Below are positions 19,140 through 29,203 of a DNA stretch of 35,535 nt, one piece after another. The first letter of the stretch is position 1, and every line of letters begins with the position of its first letter. Location: NCBI GenBank assembly GCA_944381505.1, contig CALWLK010000034.1, positions 1-35,535 on the forward strand. The letters are read 5' to 3'. Both the position numbers and the translations under genes were made by a program. The notes under the pieces are model-generated. The model was given only the letters and a program-made list of their open reading frames with translations, was not told the origin of the DNA and made no database searches. The DNA comes from an uncultured Lachnospiraceae bacterium. Lineage in GTDB: Bacteria; Bacillota; Clostridia; Lachnospirales; Lachnospiraceae.

Positions 19140-19158
19140 AATTAAGCTTTAGATATAA

Positions 19159-19231
19159 GCTACTGTAGCACAGTCGGTAGTGCGTCGCATTGGTAGTGCG
19201 GAGGTCACGGGTCCGATTCCCGTCAGTAGCT
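19159..19231 (+). tRNA. tRNA-Thr (anticodon GGT)
   Basis: A complete 73-nt cloverleaf. Acceptor GCTACTG pairs with CAGTAGC, D stem GCAC with GTGC, anticodon stem TCGCA with TGCGG, and T stem ACGGG with CCCGT. The anticodon loop is TTGGTAG, giving anticodon GGT, and the discriminator base is T. CCA is not encoded. Loop and stem lengths are all normal. It is the only clear plus-strand gene before the IS at the far end. Its 3' end is where the base composition and gene content change to phage, so it is the probable attachment site. Confidence 0.93.
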
Positions 19232-19244
19232 TTTTTGATGCAAG

Positions 19245-19517: not shown

Positions 19518-22091
19518 CTATAGGGATTTTGATTGATTGATTGCCCTACCGACCGCCTCGGCAACATTAACGGTTATTCCATTCCCTGCCTGCTTGTATA
19601 GCTGACTGTCACTATTTACTAATGCGGCTCGGTCAAAATATTCATCATTCCATCCCTGTAACCTGAAACACTCTCTTGGAGTTAATTTTCGGATAGCCAT
19701 ATAGCACTCATACTTTTGGCTCCAAACGGCACAAATTTCGGCACCATTTTTTGTTTTTAGTTTTATATATTGTTCAGGAACATCTTTAGCTTCAGCAGAT
19801 ATACTATACACAACGCCCGCATCATTATTACTGGATTTTAATGTTCTTGCTTTATCTTTACAAATACCTCTTTGAAACTCCGGAGAAGCATTCGTATATA
19901 TACCCCCTACCTCAACATTTACCGCTACTCCATGTTTGTCTTGGGCGGTTAATGTAAACATAGGTTTCCCGTTCTCCTTAAAGCGTCTGCCGTTTTGGCG
20001 TTTCTCAGCTCTATCCGGAGTAAGCACCGGTACGGCAATCCCGGAATTATCTCCTTGTCTGTTGGTTACTCCGGCATTATACCTTGCCTTGAGACATCTC
20101 GCAGTATCGGTAAACACAGCTCCTGCCGTGCTCATATCGACAAATACAGGAACCGGTACTTGAGGCTCCCTGTTCCCTCCTCCCATCGAATTTAAGCACG
20201 GAGCAATGCCGTCCGGAGAATATACACGCCAGTCATTCGGATTGTCTCTATTATCCCTTGGTGTTCTGCCTATCTGCTCTACTTTAATAGGAATACCTAC
20301 TTTTACCGGGGATTTATAGATCGTTGCCTTTAAGCAATTTCCCGCTCCTTTTACATCCAGTATTTCATCTCCCTGATGTGTTTTGCCGTTATGAAAGACA
20401 TTCCCTATAACTGAAATACTATTTTTTTGGTTTGTTCCTCCGACAGGAAATATTTTTCGAGAACCTCGGGATCTAAGATGTCCCACAGTGTAGACACGCT
20501 CTCTGTTTTGGGGCACTCCCCATTCACAACTGTTGAAAAGCTGCCATTGCACATCATACCCGAGTGAGTCCATTTCAATGAGGATTGAGGCATAATCCCA
20601 TCCCTTATTTGAACTAAGCATTCCCTTAACGTTTTCGTAGATAAGCCATTCGGGTCTATCTTCTTCTGAGATTTCATTAAGTAGCCGGAAGATTTCTCTG
20701 ATAAGACTTGATTTATCTCCTTCGAGCCCCGCTCTTTTTCCGGCAATAGAGAAATCTTGGCAGTTATGGGCTCCCATGTTGTTTGCTGTGTAGCTGTTAT
20801 CATCTTCTACCTCCATATTATATACTGTTTCTACACGTTTTGGATTATATGTGATTTCTTTAATAGGGCACCATAGACAATCATCAATATAGTATGATAG
20901 TGATTTTTGAGGCTCGGCTCTATAATTTATAATCCACGAATCTTTTTGATTCACTATACGACCTTCAATTGTTGTTGTTTTTTCGTTTTCATGAAAAAAT
21001 ATACTATATCCTTTTTTATAAGCTTTCTCAATGCATTGCCCTAATTGATAGATTAGTTTTTTACTTATTGAAGTAGCTTTGTAAACATTTTTTGAATAAC
21101 TACCATCTCCGCTCATATATCCGTCAATAAATATTTTTAGTAAATCAGATGGAAGGTTTAATATATATTGCGGAATAATTTTATTTTCAGCTCCTCTGCC
21201 ACATTGCAGACATAAAGCAAATAATTTTTTATTCCCCGCACTATATTTTATTGCAGTTCTTTCATTGATTTTCAACATTTTTATGTTTGAAATATGTTTT
21301 TCAAAATCCTGGGCTTTTTGTTTTCCAATACAAAATACAACTTTTTGATTATGAGAGGGGCGATCTTTCCTTATATCGTCTCTGATATATCCATCTGCAA
21401 TATATCTTCCTATTAACCAACATTCTTCTTCCGTAAGATTATAAATGTTTTCATTTTTGAGATTATTAGGGAATTGAATAAGCTCATTCCCGGTAAAATC
21501 TTTTACTTCTCTCCAAAAAGGCTCTGAGATATGGTATTCATACATTCTTTTTTCATTGTTCCATTTTTTTTGTTTTTCTCTCACATAAAATCGGTGATTG
21601 CCGGTTACTTCTGTGTTTGGGCTACCTTGGACTTTTAAAGTATAAATTCCTCTCTTAATATTTATCATTGGAGTTATTACTCTTTTGAATCTATTTTTAT
21701 GAGTCAGCACCAAATCTCCTGCTTTTATTTCTTCAATAGGAATCAATCCTCTATGTGTTGTAATTAAAGTTCCTTTTGTAAAACAAGGACTTCCATATCC
21801 CCATATATCGGCTTTTGGGATATCTCCTCCTTTGATACTTCTAATATCTCCGGCATACCATTCACCATTTCTGTATTCCTCCTTTAAAATTTCTTTCTGT
21901 CGCTGTTTCATCGGCAATGATTTAATATATTCCAACTGTTCGGGGGTAGCTAAGTGCATTGCGGTATAACTCATTACGGGAAATTTATCATATTCACAAA
22001 AACCTACGCATTCACAGCCCGCAAGTTCCAGCCCCCTTCTCATTCCACCGACTCCCGCAAAAAAATCTATAAATTTTAACTTGTTTTGCAA
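19518..22091 (-). CDS. Phage DNA (cytosine-5) methyltransferase containing an intein
   Basis: The precursor is 857 residues, and about 516 after splicing. The methyltransferase motifs are complete once the intein is removed: I FIDFFAGVGGMRRGLELAG, IV GYGSP+CQDFS (catalytic Cys444), VI IYENVKGML, VIII QNRERVYTVG, IX RKLTPRECFRLQGWND and X YKQAGNGITVNVAEAVGRAI. The target-recognition region lies between VIII and IX. It methylates cytosine C5 in DNA, probably to shield phage DNA from restriction. The start is TTG 22091 with GAGGT at good spacing. As it stands, the precursor has its PCQ motif split and cannot be active before splicing. Confidence 0.93.
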   Translation of the reverse strand: MQNKLKFIDFFAGVGGMRRGLELAGCECVGFCEYDKFPVMSYTAMHLATPEQLEYIKSLPMKQRQKEILKEEYRNGEWYAGDIRSIKGGDIPKADIWGYGSPCFTKGTLITTHRGLIPIEEIKAGDLVLTHKNRFKRVITPMINIKRGIYTLKVQGSPNTEVTGNHRFYVREKQKKWNNEKRMYEYHISEPFWREVKDFTGNELIQFPNNLKNENIYNLTEEECWLIGRYIADGYIRDDIRKDRPSHNQKVVFCIGKQKAQDFEKHISNIKMLKINERTAIKYSAGNKKLFALCLQCGRGAENKIIPQYILNLPSDLLKIFIDGYMSGDGSYSKNVYKATSISKKLIYQLGQCIEKAYKKGYSIFFHENEKTTTIEGRIVNQKDSWIINYRAEPQKSLSYYIDDCLWCPIKEITYNPKRVETVYNMEVEDDNSYTANNMGAHNCQDFSIAGKRAGLEGDKSSLIREIFRLLNEISEEDRPEWLIYENVKGMLSSNKGWDYASILIEMDSLGYDVQWQLFNSCEWGVPQNRERVYTVGHLRSRGSRKIFPVGGTNQKNSISVIGNVFHNGKTHQGDEILDVKGAGNCLKATIYKSPVKVGIPIKVEQIGRTPRDNRDNPNDWRVYSPDGIAPCLNSMGGGNREPQVPVPVFVDMSTAGAVFTDTARCLKARYNAGVTNRQGDNSGIAVPVLTPDRAEKRQNGRRFKENGKPMFTLTAQDKHGVAVNVEVGGIYTNASPEFQRGICKDKARTLKSSNNDAGVVYSISAEAKDVPEQYIKLKTKNGAEICAVWSQKYECYMAIRKLTPRECFRLQGWNDEYFDRAALVNSDSQLYKQAGNGITVNVAEAVGRAINQSKSL
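20763..21785 (-). other. LAGLIDADG intein in the cytosine methyltransferase
   Basis: 341 residues, from Cys103 to Asn443 of the precursor. Block A starts at Cys103 (CFTKGTLITTHRGLIPIEEI), and block B is TEVTGNHRFYV with the conserved TxxH. Two LAGLIDADG-type motifs follow, CWLIGRYIADGYI (about 224-236) and IFIDGYMSGDGSYS (about 320-333). Block F is VYNMEVEDDNSYTANN and block G is AHN, followed by +1 Cys. So it is a full-length, bifunctional class 1 intein with classical Cys1, His-Asn and +1 Cys. The extein junctions rejoin as SP|CQDFS. Splicing looks intact; whether the endonuclease still cuts cannot be told. Confidence 0.95.
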
Positions 22092-22115
22092 AATATTACC
22101 TCATTATTATTTATT

Positions 22116-22577
22116 TTAATCTCCGTTCCATATTCCGTCAGGTCTCAGTCTCGCCATTGCAAGAAGTTGATATAAGGGCTTGATTGCATTGGAGCGAGTC
22201 GGAATCCAATATCCGTTTACATTGTGTTCCTCACATTCTCTGATCTCTTCTTCACTCAAATCCTCTTTCATGTCTTCAAGAGTTTTAATGGCATGTTCCA
22301 AAACAGGAATGCTTTCCCCTCCGGAAAGTCCATAAATAGCCCTGATACCGCTACAGTCTATTGTATAAGCCTCCCCTTCCGAGTTCTTAAACTCCACTTC
22401 GCCTCTGTCCGGGAAAACCCCATCCTTGTAATACCATTGAGCGTAGTTATATGTTATATTGAGCCACAGTTCTCTCATTCCACCGACCGCATAAGTACCA
22501 CCTTTCATAAAATGAAGGTCGTTAAGCTCCAATGTTTTATTAGTGACAGGATCTTTCAGACTGATGTCATAACTCAT
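22116..22577 (-). CDS. Conserved phage protein of unknown function
   Basis: 153 residues, starting MSYDISLKDPVTNKTLELN. It has the central phrases GGTYAVGGMRELWLNITYNY and IRAIYGLSGGESIPVLEHAI and ends PLYQLLAMARLRPDGIWNGD. Proteins like this recur in Firmicute phages without an assigned role. It is acidic and soluble, with no signal peptide or membrane helix. It lies 24 bases upstream of the methyltransferase gene. Confidence 0.75.
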   Translation of the reverse strand: MSYDISLKDPVTNKTLELNDLHFMKGGTYAVGGMRELWLNITYNYAQWYYKDGVFPDRGEVEFKNSEGEAYTIDCSGIRAIYGLSGGESIPVLEHAIKTLEDMKEDLSEEEIRECEEHNVNGYWIPTRSNAIKPLYQLLAMARLRPDGIWNGD

Positions 22578-22593
22578 TTATTTTATTCCTTTC

Positions 22594-23151
22594 TCATACC
22601 TTAATTTTTGCATAAAAATCACAATATGTTGAATCCCAGTAGTCATCCACCCTATCAAGAAACCAAGGCTGATTTAATATATCTTGCTTTTCTTCATAAT
22701 ACTTCCAATTATTCCCGCCCATTCTTGAGTGAATATACAAAACATCATCATGACCGGCATATTTATTCCACATATCATATTGTTTTTGAATATTGCGGTT
22801 GTTTTTCTTAATCGCAAACTTTAGAATTTTACGCTTTTCCCCGTGAATTCTGTCCCATCTTATACCTATATATTCACCCGAACCGTTTTTTATAAGAAAA
22901 TAATCTTTTATCGCATCCGTATACTCACTTATGGTATGCCAATCTGCGGTCGGGCACCAAAAGGGATCTGCTTCACACAACCGTTTCGCAACAGATACTT
23001 CCCCCTCTTTTTTCATCTCATTGATTTCAGCTTTAGAAATCGGCTCCTCATACTTCATGAGCCTATACCCTCTCAGACGAGGAATATCTATGTTATTTTC
23101 TTTTGCTATCTTCTCTAATCCATCAATCTGCTCATACACATGCAGATCCAT
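22594..23151 (-). CDS. Hypothetical phage protein
   Basis: 185 residues, soluble, with many Trp and Tyr in the second half (IRWDRIHGEKRKI, QYDMWNKYAGHDD, MGGNNWKYYEEKQDI). The middle phrase DPFWCPTADWHTISEYTDAI contains its only Cys pair partner candidates but no metal motif. I recognise no family. Spacing of 16-19 bases on both sides fits the phage operon. Confidence 0.65.
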   Translation of the reverse strand: MDLHVYEQIDGLEKIAKENNIDIPRLRGYRLMKYEEPISKAEINEMKKEGEVSVAKRLCEADPFWCPTADWHTISEYTDAIKDYFLIKNGSGEYIGIRWDRIHGEKRKILKFAIKKNNRNIQKQYDMWNKYAGHDDVLYIHSRMGGNNWKYYEEKQDILNQPWFLDRVDDYWDSTYCDFYAKIKV

Positions 23152-23170
23152 TAAATCACCTCACAAAGCA

Positions 23171-23776
23171 TCAATTGACCCATTTTATAGTAGGCTCACC
23201 ACTATACCCTTTCTCCCATATATACCAACCGCAAGCCATGGCAGAACCACCACCGGCTCTCATTTTTTCAAACTCTCCGTTCTTGGCACACAATATCCTG
23301 CTGCTACTTACCATTAAAGATTTTAACGGATATTTTTTATACAATTCTTTCCGAGCTTTACCCTCTAAAAACTGTAGCTTTAAAAACATAATCACCTTAC
23401 ATCCATCATCAACAATATCTAAAGCATGTTCTACAAACTCTTTTGCATACTTATATGGAGGGTTTGTGATTATATCTCCGTGCCATAGGCGATTGTCGGT
23501 GAGAAAGTCAACTCCTCCCTCACCATAGCCTCTATCTATTAAATCGGAGGAATATACATTATATCCGTATTGCTTAAGCCGCTCAGATAAATGGCCTTCT
23601 CCACAGGCACACTCCCATATGGGATTTTTAAGTTTTACCCCCCCCTGTTGTAAAAGTACATCTATAGCTATAGGGTCGGTAGCATAGTAATCATTTTGCT
23701 CCCTGTCTTTGTCGGTATGGTTAGAGGCCCCGAGGGTTGTATAGATGCTTTTGGAATTACCTGTCCAATCACTCAT
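23171..23776 (-). CDS. Phage DNA N6-adenine methyltransferase-like protein
   Basis: 201 residues with the amino-methyltransferase signature NPPY in HGDIITNPPYKYAKEFVEHA, and a SAM-binding motif in IWECACGEGHLSERLKQYG followed by NVYSSDLIDRGYG. These fit the phage adenine-methylase group. The C-terminal half has GGGSAMACGWYIWEKGYSG, common in this family. The target is probably adenine N6, since NPPY is typical of that reaction. With the cytosine methylase it suggests double protection of phage DNA. It is directly followed by the next small gene without a gap. Confidence 0.85.
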   Translation of the reverse strand: MSDWTGNSKSIYTTLGASNHTDKDREQNDYYATDPIAIDVLLQQGGVKLKNPIWECACGEGHLSERLKQYGYNVYSSDLIDRGYGEGGVDFLTDNRLWHGDIITNPPYKYAKEFVEHALDIVDDGCKVIMFLKLQFLEGKARKELYKKYPLKSLMVSSSRILCAKNGEFEKMRAGGGSAMACGWYIWEKGYSGEPTIKWVN

Positions 23777-23965
23777 TTATACCTCCAATCCCCAAGCACG
23801 AGCTTGCAATTTATATCTGTATAAATTATCTTCAACATTCCATAAACCTTGCCGAAGATGCTTCTTTACTGTGGAATTAGAAGTTTTTTCTAAACATTCT
23901 TTTATTTCATCTGCTTCTTTTTGTAAATCTCTGATATAATCCAAGATATTATCCTTAGTCAGCAT
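23777..23965 (-). CDS. Small hypothetical phage protein
   Basis: About 62 residues from ATG 23963-23965, which overlaps the upstream stop (TAATG) behind GAGGA. The sequence is mostly charged helix (DYIRDLQKEADEIKECLEKT), probably a short coiled coil. No family is recognised. Confidence 0.55.
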   Translation of the reverse strand: MLTKDNILDYIRDLQKEADEIKECLEKTSNSTVKKHLRQGLWNVEDNLYRYKLQARAWGLEV

Positions 23966-24273
23966 TAACACTCCTCTTTCTTGTCTGTTTCAGACTTCTT
24001 TTCCACAGTAACTGCGTTTTTGATGCATTTTTTGAATTTTGAATACCCACCGAAATATTTCTCGGCTATCGCCATAGCCAATCCCTTCTCTTTATCAAAT
24101 CTATCTCTCTCACTACATTTAACGACTGTTTTCTCACCATTAGACCAATAAACTATTGTTGCGGGATCATGGAAGATCACCTTTTTTATATCGGCGCGAA
24201 TAATGTATTTAACAACCGCAAAATTGTCTTCAAGTGTACTTACATCTATACTTATCAAATCATCAACTATCAT
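23965..24273 (-). CDS. Conserved phage protein of unknown function
   Basis: 102 residues. The phrases KKVIFHDPATIVYWSNGEKTVVKC and KGLAMAIAEKYFGG mark a small protein that is common in Firmicute prophages and has no assigned role. The C-terminus is Lys/Glu-rich (EKKSETDKKEEC). Confidence 0.7.
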   Translation of the reverse strand: MIVDDLISIDVSTLEDNFAVVKYIIRADIKKVIFHDPATIVYWSNGEKTVVKCSERDRFDKEKGLAMAIAEKYFGGYSKFKKCIKNAVTVEKKSETDKKEEC

Positions 24274-24286
24274 TTCTTATTTCCTC

Positions 24287-24517
24287 CTAAACACTAAATG
24301 GTTTTATATCTTCATGAAAACCATTTTTAACAGATTCTTTGTTGGTTAATATACAAACCTCTAACTCTTTATTCAGCCCCAAAGCGAGTAACCCGAGAAA
24401 ACTTTTACCGTCTACCATATATTTTCCGCGGCTCACATCTACATCATACTGTTCATACTTATTACAAATTTCTGCAAATCGTGTTGCCTCTCCGATATTA
24501 TTTAAAAATATTTTCAA
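24287..24517 (-). CDS. HPr-like protein
   Basis: 76 residues resembling the HPr phosphocarrier fold. The best part is the region around the regulatory serine of HPr (Ser46): YMVDGKSFLGLLALGLNKELEV. The phosphotransfer His15 site (usually GxHARPA) is missing: the first helix reads NIGEATRFAEICNKYEQYD. It therefore cannot carry phosphate from enzyme I and, if it acts, more likely binds like Crh-type regulators. It overlaps the dUTPase gene by 20 bases. A structural rather than functional match. Confidence 0.65.
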   Translation of the reverse strand: MKIFLNNIGEATRFAEICNKYEQYDVDVSRGKYMVDGKSFLGLLALGLNKELEVCILTNKESVKNGFHEDIKPFSV

Positions 24518-25007
24518 GTTTCATCTCCTCACTTGTGCTGCCTATCCCACCGTTTCTGACTGTAGTTACCGTCTCACTATCTGCCGTACCGAAAGGAACA
24601 AAAATAGCTTGACAAAAAGCCTTTCCTTGAGGAATAACCAACACTTCCCTGCCGTTATTTTTTATGGATATGAAAATATGTCCTTCGTTGTCGGAATAAT
24701 AATAATCCTCATCTATAACCGCTACAGTATTATTTAACGACATTTTATGTTTTATTCCCATGCTGCTCCGAGGGAAAATCAACATAACCCATCCCGAGCT
24801 TATTTTACATCTTATTCCGGTAGGTACTGTCATTGTTTGTCCCGGCTCAATGAATATGTCCATAGGAGCATATATATCATGCCCCGCAGAACCTTTCGTA
24901 GCTCTTTTTGGGAGCTTTATATGACCGTAAATATCTTCATTTATACGATTAATATCATCAAAAAACTGTTCTTTTGATACTTTTTTAAATTCGGCTATCT
25001 TTACCAT
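24498..25007 (-). CDS. dut: dUTPase / dCTP deaminase-family trimeric nucleotidohydrolase
   Basis: 169 residues. The trimeric dUTPase motifs are visible: KGSAGHDIYAP (I), FPRSSMGIKH (II), NNTVAVIDEDY (III, near the uracil hairpin), QGKAFCQAIFVPFG (IV) and a glycine-rich tail RNGGIGSTSE (V). It hydrolyses dUTP to dUMP and pyrophosphate, keeping uracil out of phage DNA and supplying dTMP synthesis. The ATG overlaps the upstream stop (ATGGTAA) behind GAGGAGG. The tail RNGGIGSTS differs from the common RGxGGFGSTG, so activity is likely but not certain. Confidence 0.85.
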   Translation of the reverse strand: MVKIAEFKKVSKEQFFDDINRINEDIYGHIKLPKRATKGSAGHDIYAPMDIFIEPGQTMTVPTGIRCKISSGWVMLIFPRSSMGIKHKMSLNNTVAVIDEDYYYSDNEGHIFISIKNNGREVLVIPQGKAFCQAIFVPFGTADSETVTTVRNGGIGSTSEEMKLENIFK

Positions 25008-25192
25008 TCATCCTCCTCAAAAATTTCCAACGACGGTTCACTTATATCCGCCTCAATATCTGTAGGTATTATTTTTTCAATTTTATCTGTGATTTTTTCG
25101 ACCTCTCTCATTATGTAATCTTCATCGTTTCCCGAGTTAAACATAGAAAGAGAAACCGCAAAATCTATTACCGCATTATATTTCTTCTTCAT
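25001..25192 (-). CDS. Small hypothetical phage protein
   Basis: About 63 residues from ATG 25190-25192 (MKKKYNAVIDFAVSLSMFNSG); a TTG start at 25213 would add seven residues. It ends in a strongly acidic tail (SLEIFEEDEW). It overlaps folD at its start and dut at its end. No family is recognised. Confidence 0.55.
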   Translation of the reverse strand: MKKKYNAVIDFAVSLSMFNSGNDEDYIMREVEKITDKIEKIIPTDIEADISEPSLEIFEEDEW

Positions 25193-26042
25193 ATAAGTTC
25201 TCAGCCGCCTCAATAGTGTTTTCCAGTAACGCCAGTCTCGTAAGCAAGCCGACCCCGCCTATGCCACTTATAATTACTTGAGATGAATCTTCCTTACCTT
25301 TTTCCAAAGCCATGTCTATAACTCTCTTAGCGTAGTTACCGTGAAGCTTCCCATCCTCTCCCTTCCCGAGCCCTATATCTACAAGATTGGCGTTCCCTAT
25401 ACCCTCATTAAAATATTCTATTTTATCTATACAAGTAAAAATAAAATCAGAGTAATCCATTGCGTCACATAAATCTGCAGGATTGGTTTTGCTGTGACAA
25501 AGGGTAACGGTCATATCGGCGTCTGTCAGTAATTCAGCCAGAGGTTTCCCTACAAGATCGCTTCTGCCGATTACTACCGCACGTTTGCCGGCAAGGTCAA
25601 CTTTCTTATATTTTAAGAAATCAACTACTCCTTTAGGTGTACATGGAGTAAAATCACTCTTCCCGGTCAATCCGTCCACATCATATTCCCCCGGAATATG
25701 TCTTATAAGTCTCTTAGTTTCCTCGTTCATAAACGGTACGGGTAACTGTAATATTACTCCGGCATATTTCTTTGAACTTGCTATAGTCACAAATTTTCCG
25801 TATATATCCAAAACAGCGGCGGTGAGATTATAGTCGGGAATTTTAGCAACTTCTATACCCATACCGACCTCATTGAAGTCTTTTACTTTTCCTTTTATAT
25901 AGCTGTTGGAGGCGGGATTATCTCCCACCTGAATAACCAACAGCTTTTTAGCGGCAATCCCGGGATGTTTTTCAAGGTATTTCTTAATCCCGGCTTTCCG
26001 CAGTATAACATAATCTTGTATATCTTTATTTGTTATCATCAT
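25176..26042 (-). CDS. folD: Phage-borne methylenetetrahydrofolate dehydrogenase/cyclohydrolase FolD
   Basis: 288 residues, full family length. Motifs present: SNSYIKGKVKDFNEVG with the catalytic Tyr/Lys, GVILQLPVPF, DVDGLTGKSDFTPCTPKGVVDFL and the NAD(P) motif VVIGRSDLVGKPLAELL. It interconverts methylene-, methenyl- and formyl-tetrahydrofolate, the carbon carriers for dTMP and purines. It overlaps nrdG by 17 bases. A folate enzyme inside a phage dNTP cassette suggests supply of one-carbon units for DNA precursor synthesis. Confidence 0.93.
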   Translation of the reverse strand: MMITNKDIQDYVILRKAGIKKYLEKHPGIAAKKLLVIQVGDNPASNSYIKGKVKDFNEVGMGIEVAKIPDYNLTAAVLDIYGKFVTIASSKKYAGVILQLPVPFMNEETKRLIRHIPGEYDVDGLTGKSDFTPCTPKGVVDFLKYKKVDLAGKRAVVIGRSDLVGKPLAELLTDADMTVTLCHSKTNPADLCDAMDYSDFIFTCIDKIEYFNEGIGNANLVDIGLGKGEDGKLHGNYAKRVIDMALEKGKEDSSQVIISGIGGVGLLTRLALLENTIEAAENLYEEEI

Positions 26043-26646
26043 TCACACTTTCATCTTTAAACAATACCAGCTTATTCTTTCCGAGAGATTGTCGTACATC
26101 AATTACTCGTTGATTTGCAGATCCTCTCCAAGGCAAGGATAGGTCTTTTTGATATTCCACAAAAGTTCCGTCAACAAATACATCGCAGTTTCTTACCAAC
26201 CATGCGGCCATATATTCCCTCTTGGTTTTGGCTACGGCTTTGGCGGTTGAAAGGAGTTCTTCTATAGGACAACGACCTCCTCGCATTTCTTTTACCGCAG
26301 TATAAAATGGTATATCCAAAGACTCCCATGTATACCCCGACCAAATCCATACATCTTTCCCTAATGCATGTGTTTTATGCACTAATTGAAGGAGCTTCTC
26401 CATGTCTTCTAAAGTCTGACAAAGAGGATCTCCGCCGAGAATACTTAAGCCTTTTATGTTGGGGTTGTCAAGGAGATTTAATATCAGTTCCTCTGTTTCT
26501 TTTGTATAGGGTTTGCCGTAATCAAAATCTTGAAGCTCTTGATTGAAGCAATTATGACAGTGAAAATTACATCCTGAGACAAAAAGGGAAACTCTCCACC
26601 CTACCCCGTTCACACAGTCATAATTCAATATTTTACTGTAAAACAT
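26026..26646 (-). CDS. nrdG: Anaerobic ribonucleotide reductase-activating protein NrdG
   Basis: 206-residue radical SAM activase. It has the cluster motif VSGCNFHCHNCFN (CX3CX2C), GLSILGGDPLCQ (the SAM-binding GGD/E region) and VWIWSGYTWE. It makes the glycyl radical on NrdD by reductive SAM cleavage. GAGGT precedes the ATG, which lies two bases after the nrdD stop, so both subunits are co-translated. Confidence 0.95.
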   Translation of the reverse strand: MFYSKILNYDCVNGVGWRVSLFVSGCNFHCHNCFNQELQDFDYGKPYTKETEELILNLLDNPNIKGLSILGGDPLCQTLEDMEKLLQLVHKTHALGKDVWIWSGYTWESLDIPFYTAVKEMRGGRCPIEELLSTAKAVAKTKREYMAAWLVRNCDVFVDGTFVEYQKDLSLPWRGSANQRVIDVRQSLGKNKLVLFKDESVNDDNK

Positions 26647-26648
26647 TA

Positions 26649-29203
26649 TTATACCTCACAACCGGTATGCTTTACTCTCTGCTCCGTCTCTTGTCGTTTT
26701 CCTTTATTAAAGGCGGTTGTGTATGAGCTTGTCAAATATCCCGTCACACGGCGAAGTCTTTGTATATCCGTCCCACCGCAAATAGGACACTTATCTCCCA
26801 TTTCATCCATATACCCACAACTCAGACAAGTATCATTTGGTACATTTATAGCAAAATAAGGGATATCCTTGTCCATAGCATAGTTTACCAGCACTTCCAT
26901 AGCAAAAATATTATTTTTAACCCCACCGTCCAATTCGACATAAGTGATGCATCCCGCATTCGAATATCCCGTAAGCTGGGCTTCTAAGTTAATTTTTTCA
27001 AATGGAGACATTTTTTTCCAAACCGGAATATGCATTGAATTGGTAAAATACTCTCTGTCTGAAACATTAGGGATTATACCGTATTTTTCTTTGAATTTAT
27101 TCATTGCGGTATGGCATAAGTTTTCTGCCGGAGTATAGTAAACACCGAAATTTAAACTATATTCCTTTTTATATTTGGCGCACTTTTCTTTGAATAAACT
27201 TTCAATTTTTTTGGCTAACTCCATACCTCTCGGCTCTGTGTGATCACATCCGATTAATATTTGAAGTGTTTCCGCAAGTCCCAGTTGACCTATTGCCAAT
27301 GTACCATGCTTCATAGCGCTCCTTATGCCTTCTTCAGGAACATATCCTGCCATCAGATTATTTTCATACATGAATTTGGCACTGTCGGGTGACTGCGAAC
27401 ATATCCATTCAAATCTCTCAAGAAGCATATCTTTAGCTTCTGCTATTTTATTTTCAAGGAGCTGCATAAATGATTCTGTAGCATTGCCGTCTCCTACGGC
27501 ACTACCGGTTTCCTGTACGGCTTCCATTGCGATTGTAGGCAAAATAATTGTCACAGGGCAAATATTCCCTCTACCGTCTTTTAATTGTCCTAATCCGTTT
27601 ATATCAAAGCCGTTATACGTTCTACACAAGGCTTTCACCTTGGAGTACATCATCACTGTTCGATCAGTGCTTGGCGCTTTACCGCAGGATTTTCACCTAC
27701 TGATTACCCTACTCGGTTATTCTCTGTTGCAACTCGAATTACGCAGCAGATATCCTTTCGATACTCTCTTCACATACATAGTCAAAATATAATCATATAA
27801 TTTGATTATGTTTAGCACGGCGATTACTCTTCCGAGGTTCCCCGTTAGCAAGAATATTAACAAGTCATTGTCCTACTTGAAGCCGCAGCTATTCTCACAC
27901 CCTATATTTATAGGTTCACCAAGTTTTACATGGGCCATAGTGTAGGTTTTTAACCCATGGTTGAGGTATATGTACGAGGATCATCTCTGTCATACCCCTC
28001 ATTTACAGACCAATCCACATTCACATAATTAGGATAAAGTCTTAGTGCTGTTGATTTTAATGCAAGTCTGAATAAATCATAGTTCGGATCCCCAAAGACG
28101 CGATTCACACCTTTCATACACTGAAAAATCCCACAGGGGAAAATAGATGTTTTGTGTAATTTCCCCATCCCTTTTATGGATGTTTCAAGTAACGCTTTTA
28201 TTACCATCCTTCCTTCGGGTAAAGTACACGTTCCATAATTAATACTGCTAAAAGGCAACTGATTCCCGGAACGTGACTGCAATGTATTTAAGTTATGATA
28301 CATTGCTTCGACCGCCTGATTTGTCTCTTTAACGGTCATGTCTAAAGCATATGAATAAGCTTTAGGGTATCGTGTTTTATAGTAATCGGCTTCAATGCTG
28401 ACATCTTCCGGCGCAATTGGTTCAATATTATTTAGAGATATTCCTTCACAATACTTAATACCATCTTGCCAATGTTTATAAAAACTCTTCCTCACATAAG
28501 GAACCATAGTCCAATCTAAATGTGTCGCCGCCACTCCCCCGAACTGCTGTAAGCTCTGCAGCTGAAAAATTACAGCAACCAACTGAAAAGCCGTATTAAT
28601 ACTTTGAGCCGGGCGTACATCAGTCTGTCTTGTGTTAAATCCATTTTTTAGCAGATCGTCAAATGGAATACTTAGACAGTTATGATTTCCAACTGCATAG
28701 TTGTCCAAATCATGAATATAAATTTCGTTATTTTCATGATTGGCTTTTGCCATCGGGCTTAACAAATAATCAAGAGCAAATGTTTTTGTAAGAACTCTTG
28801 TGGCTTCTCCTAATCTGCCACCAAAAGATTTTTCATCTACATTTGCATTTTGATTTTCAACATCCTGTGCTTCAAGCTTGTTGGCAACCGCTCTCATTAA
28901 CAAGGAATATCTGTCTCTTCCCATCTCATGCAGATACCTATATCTTATGTAGGCTTTTGCAACATCTTTGCGGTAAGAACACATTAAAGTAAGTTCTACC
29001 GAATCTTGAATTTCTTCTACGTCCAAAACAGGTTTCGAATTATTTATCTCTATTGTTTGAACTGCTTTATCTGCAACTTCTTTGGCATATTCATCAACCT
29101 TTCCATCAACCTCTTTGAAAGCTTTGAATATTGCATTGACAATCTTATTTTTATCAAAACCAACAATTCTGCCGTCTCTTTTTTTTACTTTTGTTTCAAT
29201 CAT
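26649..29203 (-). CDS. nrdD: Anaerobic (class III) ribonucleoside-triphosphate reductase NrdD, split by a group I intron
   Basis: Two exons: 29203-27953 (417 codons) and 27626-26649 (325 codons plus stop). Joined in phase they give 742 residues, normal for NrdD. The N-terminal ATP cone is residues about 1-95 (KVKKRDGRIVGFDKNKIV), and the barrel includes GVNRVFGDPNYDLF. The splice makes STMG+CRTYNGFDINGLG, restoring the conserved MGCR motif. Cys418 matches the thiyl-radical cysteine, because the distance to the glycyl radical Gly713 in RRVTGYL is close to that known in E. coli NrdD. A zinc site, CLSCGYMDEMGDKCPICGG, lies before it. Unspliced, exon 1 ends at a TAA three bases into the intron. 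The ATG overlaps the upstream stop. Confidence 0.95.
27627..27952 (-). ncRNA. Group I intron (IA2-like, no homing endonuclease gene) in nrdD
   Basis: 326 nt on the minus strand. Exon 1 ends in CATGGGT, whose last seven bases pair with the guide GCCCATG (27935-27929), giving P1 with the required U-G at the splice site. Exon 2 begins TGTAG, which pairs with CTACA (27945-27941) as P10. The last intron base is the conserved omega-G (27627). The core CTAACGGGGAACCTC ... CCGTGCTAAA (about 27848-27811) closely resembles the P4-P5-P6 segment of the phage T4 td intron as I recall it. No frame for a homing nuclease fits inside. The intron is phase 0. Confidence 0.9.

Follow-up and report, generated by a model that had tools for sequence, protein, structure and literature searches.

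The window analysed here is the whole of contig CALWLK010000034.1 (35,535 nucleotides, nt), one of 100 contigs in a 1.80 Mb assembly of an uncultured Lachnospiraceae bacterium. It carries part of a prophage in which two genes are interrupted directly before the codon of a catalytic cysteine: nrdD, for a ribonucleotide reductase (RNR), by a group I intron, and a C5-cytosine methyltransferase gene by an intein (Table 1). The first 19 kb belong to the host chromosome and contain genes for RelA/SpoT, a glutamyl/glutaminyl-tRNA synthetase and a SpoU methylase. The prophage is visible only from the adjoining tRNA-Thr gene (19158) to the contig end (35535), and both interrupted genes lie on its minus strand.

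The nrdD gene is read as two minus-strand open reading frames (ORFs; 27950-29203 and 26649-27656). When both are aligned to the NCBIfam model PRK07111, residue 417, the last of exon 1, falls on model position 431 and the Cys of exon 2 CRTY on position 432, so that the two protein pieces abut and nothing is lost. The product has the attributes of a class III RNR large subunit, namely an ATP cone, a Cys at the thiyl position and a NrdG partner. In alignments the exon 2 Cys coincides with the one in intact viral NrdDs, and that of one of these relatives (L013) corresponds to C290 of T4 NrdD (1h78, numbered by counting along the alignment), C400 of chain 9d3x and the TMGCRT Cys of 8p23. We take Cys290 of T4 NrdD to be the thiyl-radical residue, and the alignment places Cys418 at that position, as the initial annotation had proposed.

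The intron interrupts nrdD between GGT (Gly417) and TGT (Cys418), and no homing-endonuclease ORF was seen inside its 326 nt. Its splice sites carry the expected marks, with a U at the end of the 5' exon, a G at the end of the intron and a U.G pair of P1 at the splice site; the final six exon bases pair 6/6 with the internal guide sequence, and the two strands of P7 also pair 6/6. In five same-site relatives P7 reads GACTAT with ATAGTC (4/5) or GATCAT with ATGATC (L021), changes that are compensatory with respect to GAGTAT and GTACTC of the window. These pairings were read base by base in six sequences, since the MAFFT alignment placed the 3' ends of the introns wrongly, and they carry no formal covariation statistic. 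The intron RNA has a fold energy z of -3.3, better than 100/100 shuffles (plain fold, without the pseudoknot), and we suspect that it belongs to subclass IA2. Five intact relatives (L013, L016, L019, L022 and L023) are empty alleles that join the same two codons. Among the loci compared, its nearest relatives include an 830-nt intron at the same bond with an HNH-like ORF (L277; 85% identity over 54 nt, nhmmer E 1.2e-7). A further nhmmer match (L007, E 6.1e-12) lies beside a DNA polymerase gene, and other near relatives lie within or next to the DNA polymerase genes of SPO1-like phages and Lactobacillus phages. These SPO1-type introns, exemplified by Bacillus phage Goe26 and Lactobacillus phages Satyr and Semele, are closest to the window ribozyme in nucleotide sequence, both among the loci compared and in the phage collection, but differ from it in gene and site. 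Thirteen relatives were aligned with the window intron, and most of them resemble a single family with a common start and a GATATAGTC-type end. The ribozyme, now without an endonuclease gene, would remove itself from the mRNA and restore MG-CRT, and the joined exons would read ATGGGTTGT.

The methyltransferase is encoded as a single ORF of 857 amino acids (aa), of which residues 103-443 are the intein and residue 444, immediately following, is the Cys of CQDFS that aligns with M.HhaI position 81. The host protein was identified by PF00145 (E 3.5e-52), by the motif IV PCQ that predicted splicing would restore and by an ENV motif. Pfam searches of the whole protein returned Hint_2 (E 5e-9) and Intein_splicing (E 4e-8, the match ending at 443); the latter scores 37.0 bits on the isolated intein (cut-off 35.8) and 33.5 bits in the whole protein, and the LAGLIDADG_3 match of the isolated intein (E 6.6e-4) is under the family cut-off. 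Over 23 sequences including the window, the splicing residues C1, H64 and N341 are invariant and T61 and H340 are at least 90% conserved, as are D131 and D227, the acidic positions of two LAGLIDADG-type motifs; the codon next to the window intein supplies Cys+1. The AlphaFold2 model has a predicted local distance difference test (pLDDT) score of 93.5, and Foldseek ranks the TliVMA intein (7qsu, E 5.9e-18) first, followed by PI-SceI. An empty allele reads GFP/CQD in L010 (a slash marks the point of insertion here and below). In another methyltransferase relative, L011, an internal deletion joins residues near 78 to residues near 824, with stops further on. The intein is predicted to excise post-translationally, with the catalytic Cys as +1 nucleophile, restoring P-CQDFS, and its LAGLIDADG domain probably cuts empty alleles, by which the intein would home. 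The initial annotation had named both elements correctly within one span, 20763-27952, which resolves into 20763-21785 for the intein and 27627-27952 for the intron.

Table 1. Features of the prophage part of the window, ordered by position.
Feature	Coordinates	Strand	Basis or remark
tRNA-Thr	19158..19232	+	junction: host chromosome left, phage genes right
C5-cytosine methyltransferase, C-extein	19518..20762	-	starts with catalytic Cys codon (20760-20762) of motif IV CQDFS; aligned with M.HhaI from position 79, Cys at 81
LAGLIDADG-domain intein, 341 aa, CFTKGT...GAHN	20763..21785	-	Pfam, conserved residues, AlphaFold2, Foldseek
C5-cytosine methyltransferase, N-extein	21786..22091	-	ORF reading, M.HhaI alignment, extein comparison
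nrdG, NrdD activase (radical SAM)	26026..26646	-	TIGR02491 E 2.1e-42
nrdD exon 2	26649..27626	-	starts with TGT thiyl-Cys codon (27624-27626); PF13597 E 8.8e-77
ORF-less group I intron in nrdD	27627..27952	-	abutting exons, boundaries, P1, P7, relatives
P7 3' strand, GTACTC	27643..27648	-	pairs with GAGTAT; position obtained by counting
P7 5' strand, GAGTAT	27761..27766	-	pairs with GTACTC; compensatory changes in relatives
Internal guide sequence GCCCAT (P1 3' strand)	27930..27935	-	P1 pairing; position obtained by counting
P1 5' strand, ATGGGT	27953..27958	-	final six exon bases, paired with the internal guide
nrdD exon 1 (ATP cone and N part of NrdD)	27953..29203	-	PF13597 E 1.1e-59, PF03477 E 4.3e-22

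Prophages decay, the contig shows only part of this one, and the intron has no endonuclease, so it may be asked whether one or both elements are dead and the gene is the relic of a decaying prophage. We regard this as improbable given the open reading frames, the intact splicing residues and checked helices, and the confident intein model. As judged from sequence, the window very probably holds two independent mobile self-splicing elements of known kinds, and both occupy recurrent insertion sites that coincide with catalytic Cys codons.

The recurrence of the nrdD site was followed in scans of viral sequences, which, like those for the intein and the methyltransferase, cover the best 80 loci each; the counts sample close relatives and are not a census. 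Scan A combined two lists from exon 2 queries, one of them the best 80, and this ranking disfavours genes with exon 2 inserts; of its 89 loci 72 were distinct, and 69 of these spanned the Cys. Scan B used an exon 1 query, and its 80 loci included 68 distinct ones, 65 of which spanned the Cys. HNH and GIY-YIG labels of intron ORFs refer to motifs found by eye or regular expression, not to hidden Markov model scores. An insert at or within 4 nt of MG/C was present in 11/69 distinct genes of survey A, 10 of them exactly at GGT/TGY (L021 assigned by eye) and one, L101, 4 nt upstream; nine other inserts followed residues near 180, 228, 320 and 331. The corresponding figure for survey B was 16/65, comprising 14 introns exactly at the bond, L278 at 4 nt upstream and an intein in L256 (position assigned by direct reading), and six inserts lay elsewhere, at 544, 597 (four) and 727. 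With contigs common to both scans counted once, 22 viral contigs beyond the window have an intron exactly at MG/C; the contigs L050 and L062 start inside such an intron, and three loci, including Thomasclavelia phage TR-TP2 (L008), have one 4 nt upstream. The elements at MG/C comprise inteins and introns, the latter either with a GIY-YIG-like or HNH-like ORF or ORF-less (278 and 304 nt). Empty alleles are the majority, with no insert at the Cys in 58/69 (A) and 49/65 (B) genes. Lactococcus phage 949, with an NrdD of only ~25-35% identity over the matched segments, has an intron, read by eye, at the same MG/C bond as the window intron; it too is ORF-less and is 320 nt long. The NrdD match of the related phage P1048 is uninterrupted there. 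The T4 nrdD intron (I-TevII) is, like that of the window, a group I intron in nrdD, but it lies at about residue 167 (counted from L009), far from Cys290, and carries a GIY-YIG enzyme.

Proteins also occupy the nrdD bond. L256 holds a 363-aa intein in frame between ATG GGA and TGC, and a scan with this intein found eight loci, one being the L256 contig itself; the other seven contigs all have the intein at MG/CR, in NrdDs that differ widely. L237 is a ninth contig with an intein at MG/C, and a related intein of Eggerthella phage EL753P1 ends HN/CRT, its N side not being placed by the alignment. BLASTP found no real similarity between the L256-type NrdD intein and the window intein. A single viral contig of 150,785 bases carries both L237 and L107, with inteins at NrdD MG/C and methyltransferase P/C, so that this phage has inteins at both boundaries that are occupied by intron and intein in the window. 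The L107 methyltransferase intein is the closest relative of the window intein among the matches listed (64%).

The intein family was surveyed with three methyltransferase inteins as seeds, and methyltransferases are over-represented in the result. A full-length match in one frame was found in 101/132 loci, with Cys at +1 in 92, Ser in 6 and 3 unassigned. The exteins of 32 loci (at most 31 distinct, as L004 and L119 are the same phage) are homologous to the window methyltransferase, some weakly; homology was accepted in a small set at phmmer E values of 0.01 or less, and the weakest of the 32 may be chance matches. The intein precedes a Cys in 32/32, at P/C in 29 and at PD/C or PT/C in 3. A methyltransferase scan blind to inserts gave 80 loci, 64 of them distinct, with the P/C bond empty in 60, filled by an intein in 3 and by an intron in 0, and not assessable in 1. 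Aeromonas phage PS1 ThyA has an intein at LTP/CHF, and L148 and L150, identified by motif, look like further cases of this kind. The methyltransferase inteins of Lactobacillus phage Nyseid, P1 Dmt and Propionibacterium phage B22 are similar and occupy the same P/CQ site, but are only 30-33% identical to the window intein. Distantly similar inteins were also seen before a Cys (YGR/CVFCG) in archaeal iron-sulphur-type proteins (L187-L192). At both sites of the window, then, elements recur in relatives, and the alternative considered in the initial annotation, that homologous elements lie mostly at unrelated positions, was not what was found.

The co-occurrence of the two elements was searched from both sides. 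Among 20 records with interrupted or intact nrdD, the window intein matched one, phage 949, whose intein sits at another nrdD site. NrdD exon 2 matched 7 of 18 records of intein, methyltransferase or Lactococcus loci; among these, L237 has the MG/C intein described above, L238 has an uninterrupted MGC, L239 and L241 show no motif and L240 has the motif HN/CRLRLD, and no exon 2 match was obtained in Lactobacillus phage Nyseid. L240, in the same record as the methyltransferase intein L132, spans 1651 aa in one frame; it matches NrdD weakly and at this motif resembles the end of an intein. Among 60 other host-related genomes, the top match to NrdD exon 2 had 40% identity; the top methyltransferase match (G066, 28%) has an intein at GSP/CQ on a contig with a weak NrdD match.

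The initial annotation had suggested that both elements were selected to hit the least changeable codon of their host gene. Conservation was ranked over 74 intact distinct nrdD genes, with uniform random ranks as the null. In amino acids, MG/C is in the top 1.4% with two residues on each side, 0.4% with three and 4.3% with five, and the eight points of insertion in nrdD, taken together, exceed the conservation expected from random ranks (P ~0.0001 in amino acids and 0.0006 to 0.03 in nucleotides); to this extent the suggestion holds. Several observations weigh against it. In nucleotides MG/C reaches only the top 9-10% (two or three codons per side) or 21% (five) and is not the best-conserved nrdD DNA. 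Seven further nrdD sites take inserts, so the Cys is not the sole attractor, and carriers share ancestry, so that a count is not a number of separate insertions. The intein also has relatives at non-catalytic positions, for instance HI/CPLQ of a methylase, and the family is thus not confined to catalytic Cys. For the intron itself, Rfam RF00028 returned no group I intron in the window at the gathering score or at E up to 10; when 14 loci carrying introns or intron-like matches served as a control, the same model scored T4 alone and missed the other 13, so this negative is weak and was not counted against the intron. An earlier ranking, in which 113/166 loci were kept, was less favourable to MG/C (rank 99-310 of 718-734); interrupted genes had been included there, and their alignment edges blur the site.

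The Cys might be irrelevant altogether, with homing endonucleases reading any conserved DNA and MG/C being one such stretch, where an early hit spread by homing and descent. The eight sites do lie, on average, in conserved stretches, the one-family look of most aligned intron relatives is in keeping with such spread, and three introns sit 4 nt off the bond. We nevertheless consider this account unlikely, as MG/C takes most of the survey B inserts (16/22) though many nrdD boundaries with lower nucleotide entropy have none, and as inteins unlike that of the window are found at the very same bond.

What makes the bond acceptable to both kinds of element may be their splicing chemistry. The codon before the insertion site, codon 432, is GGT in 24/74 intact nrdD genes and in 23/23 intron carriers (22 contigs and the window; Fisher P 1.4e-9, uncorrected for shared descent), and in 0/8 distinct intein contigs of the L256-type scan. 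Since the intron needs U at -1 and the intein Cys at +1, ATG GGT/TGY suits both, and RNA and protein elements can meet at one bond. The shared placement before a Cys, which the initial annotation ascribed to selection, is thus in part a matter of element chemistry (the +1 Cys of 92/101 inteins, the U at -1 of introns), and introns occur elsewhere in nrdD as well. We tentatively propose, as one possible reading, that the bond before the thiyl-Cys codon of phage nrdD is a contested homing site, where more than one intron type and unrelated inteins compete and may replace each other because ATG GGT/TGY can serve as ribozyme 5' exon and as intein +1 site while encoding an active site that cannot be lost; the methyltransferase P/C bond would be a second such site, with inteins only so far. 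Endonucleases reading conserved active-site DNA would account for arrival, the need for exact loss to leave the enzyme alive would account for retention, and the chemistry of the element would set the exact bond.

The idea of conditional splicing, raised in the initial annotation, holds that the elements are kept since their splicing senses redox state or host physiology and gates deoxynucleotide synthesis and DNA methylation. Both elements end at reactive cysteines, and redox- or stress-responsive inteins are known from the literature. Empty alleles are in the majority at both sites (nrdD 58/69 and 49/65; methyltransferase 60/64), so neither element is needed, and we hold the idea to be very improbable; no dedicated search for regulatory features was made.

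Derbyshire and Belfort reportedly described in 1998 the coincidence of introns and inteins in RNR genes, with RNA and protein elements at different sites of one gene. The present case differs from such SPbeta nrdE-type coincidence in that MG/C is the same bond in different phages and that the window has the elements in two genes. The initial annotation had considered two splicing systems in one phage module unusual, which is not supported, as both kinds of element are already reported together within a single phage RNR gene, SPbeta nrdE and Lactococcus phage 949 nrdD, in the accessible text of PMC3653736; that text does not state the relation of the 949 nrdD intron to the active site. In Jug phages, according to the available portion of PMC12363816, nrdD is fragmented in 95/104 genomes, with endonucleases or intein domains between the fragments, and RNA reads support splicing for 37/76 predicted introns; the positions of the inserts relative to the catalytic Cys are not stated in that portion. 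That inteins and group I introns favour conserved sites has long been in print, as in PMC2814812 and PMC2988022, where it is argued that their loss is tolerated only if precise. PMC2988022 further notes that the recognised DNA often codes for an active site, and PMC8772380 describes inteins and introns near the metal ligands and radical Tyr of RNR R2. With conserved-site preference and RNR examples both in print, the idea of the initial annotation is sound but largely known, and the window intron and intein are ordinary elements of known kinds at a remarkable site. Introns and inteins sharing one bond before the NrdD catalytic Cys were not found reported in the open-access literature searched, subscription papers being mostly outside that search.

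At one and the same nrdD bond sit inteins and ribozymes with different endonucleases, and the many empty alleles serve as controls. The MG/C set separates the DNA wanted by endonucleases, the base or residue required for splicing (U at -1 or Cys at +1) and the active site, tolerant of exact loss only, that is kept by selection, and it makes the question of arrival versus retention of self-splicing elements testable.

As for the surroundings of the two genes, no integrase was found among the subset of phage ORFs tested, and the last 29 bases of the tRNA-Thr gene occur once in the assembly, with up to one mismatch allowed. FolD-like and dUTPase genes lie beside nrdDG in the same phage module (window 24498-26042).

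Among the viral nrdD genes surveyed, L047, L056 and L079 have two or three inserts within a single gene, and a further insert in exon 1 of L021 (L021:1800-3170), upstream of the intron, apparently splits the gene into two frames. The L264 intron at RRVTG/YL adjoins the intein site QRV/CGYL in NrdD of Lactococcus phages (L227 and L228), a region presumably near the glycyl-radical loop. Six phage nrdD genes (L016, L017, L018, L026, L043 and L064) have in-frame TAG at conserved positions, some of which are Gln in relatives, and this pattern suggests that the six are likely TAG-recoded phages.

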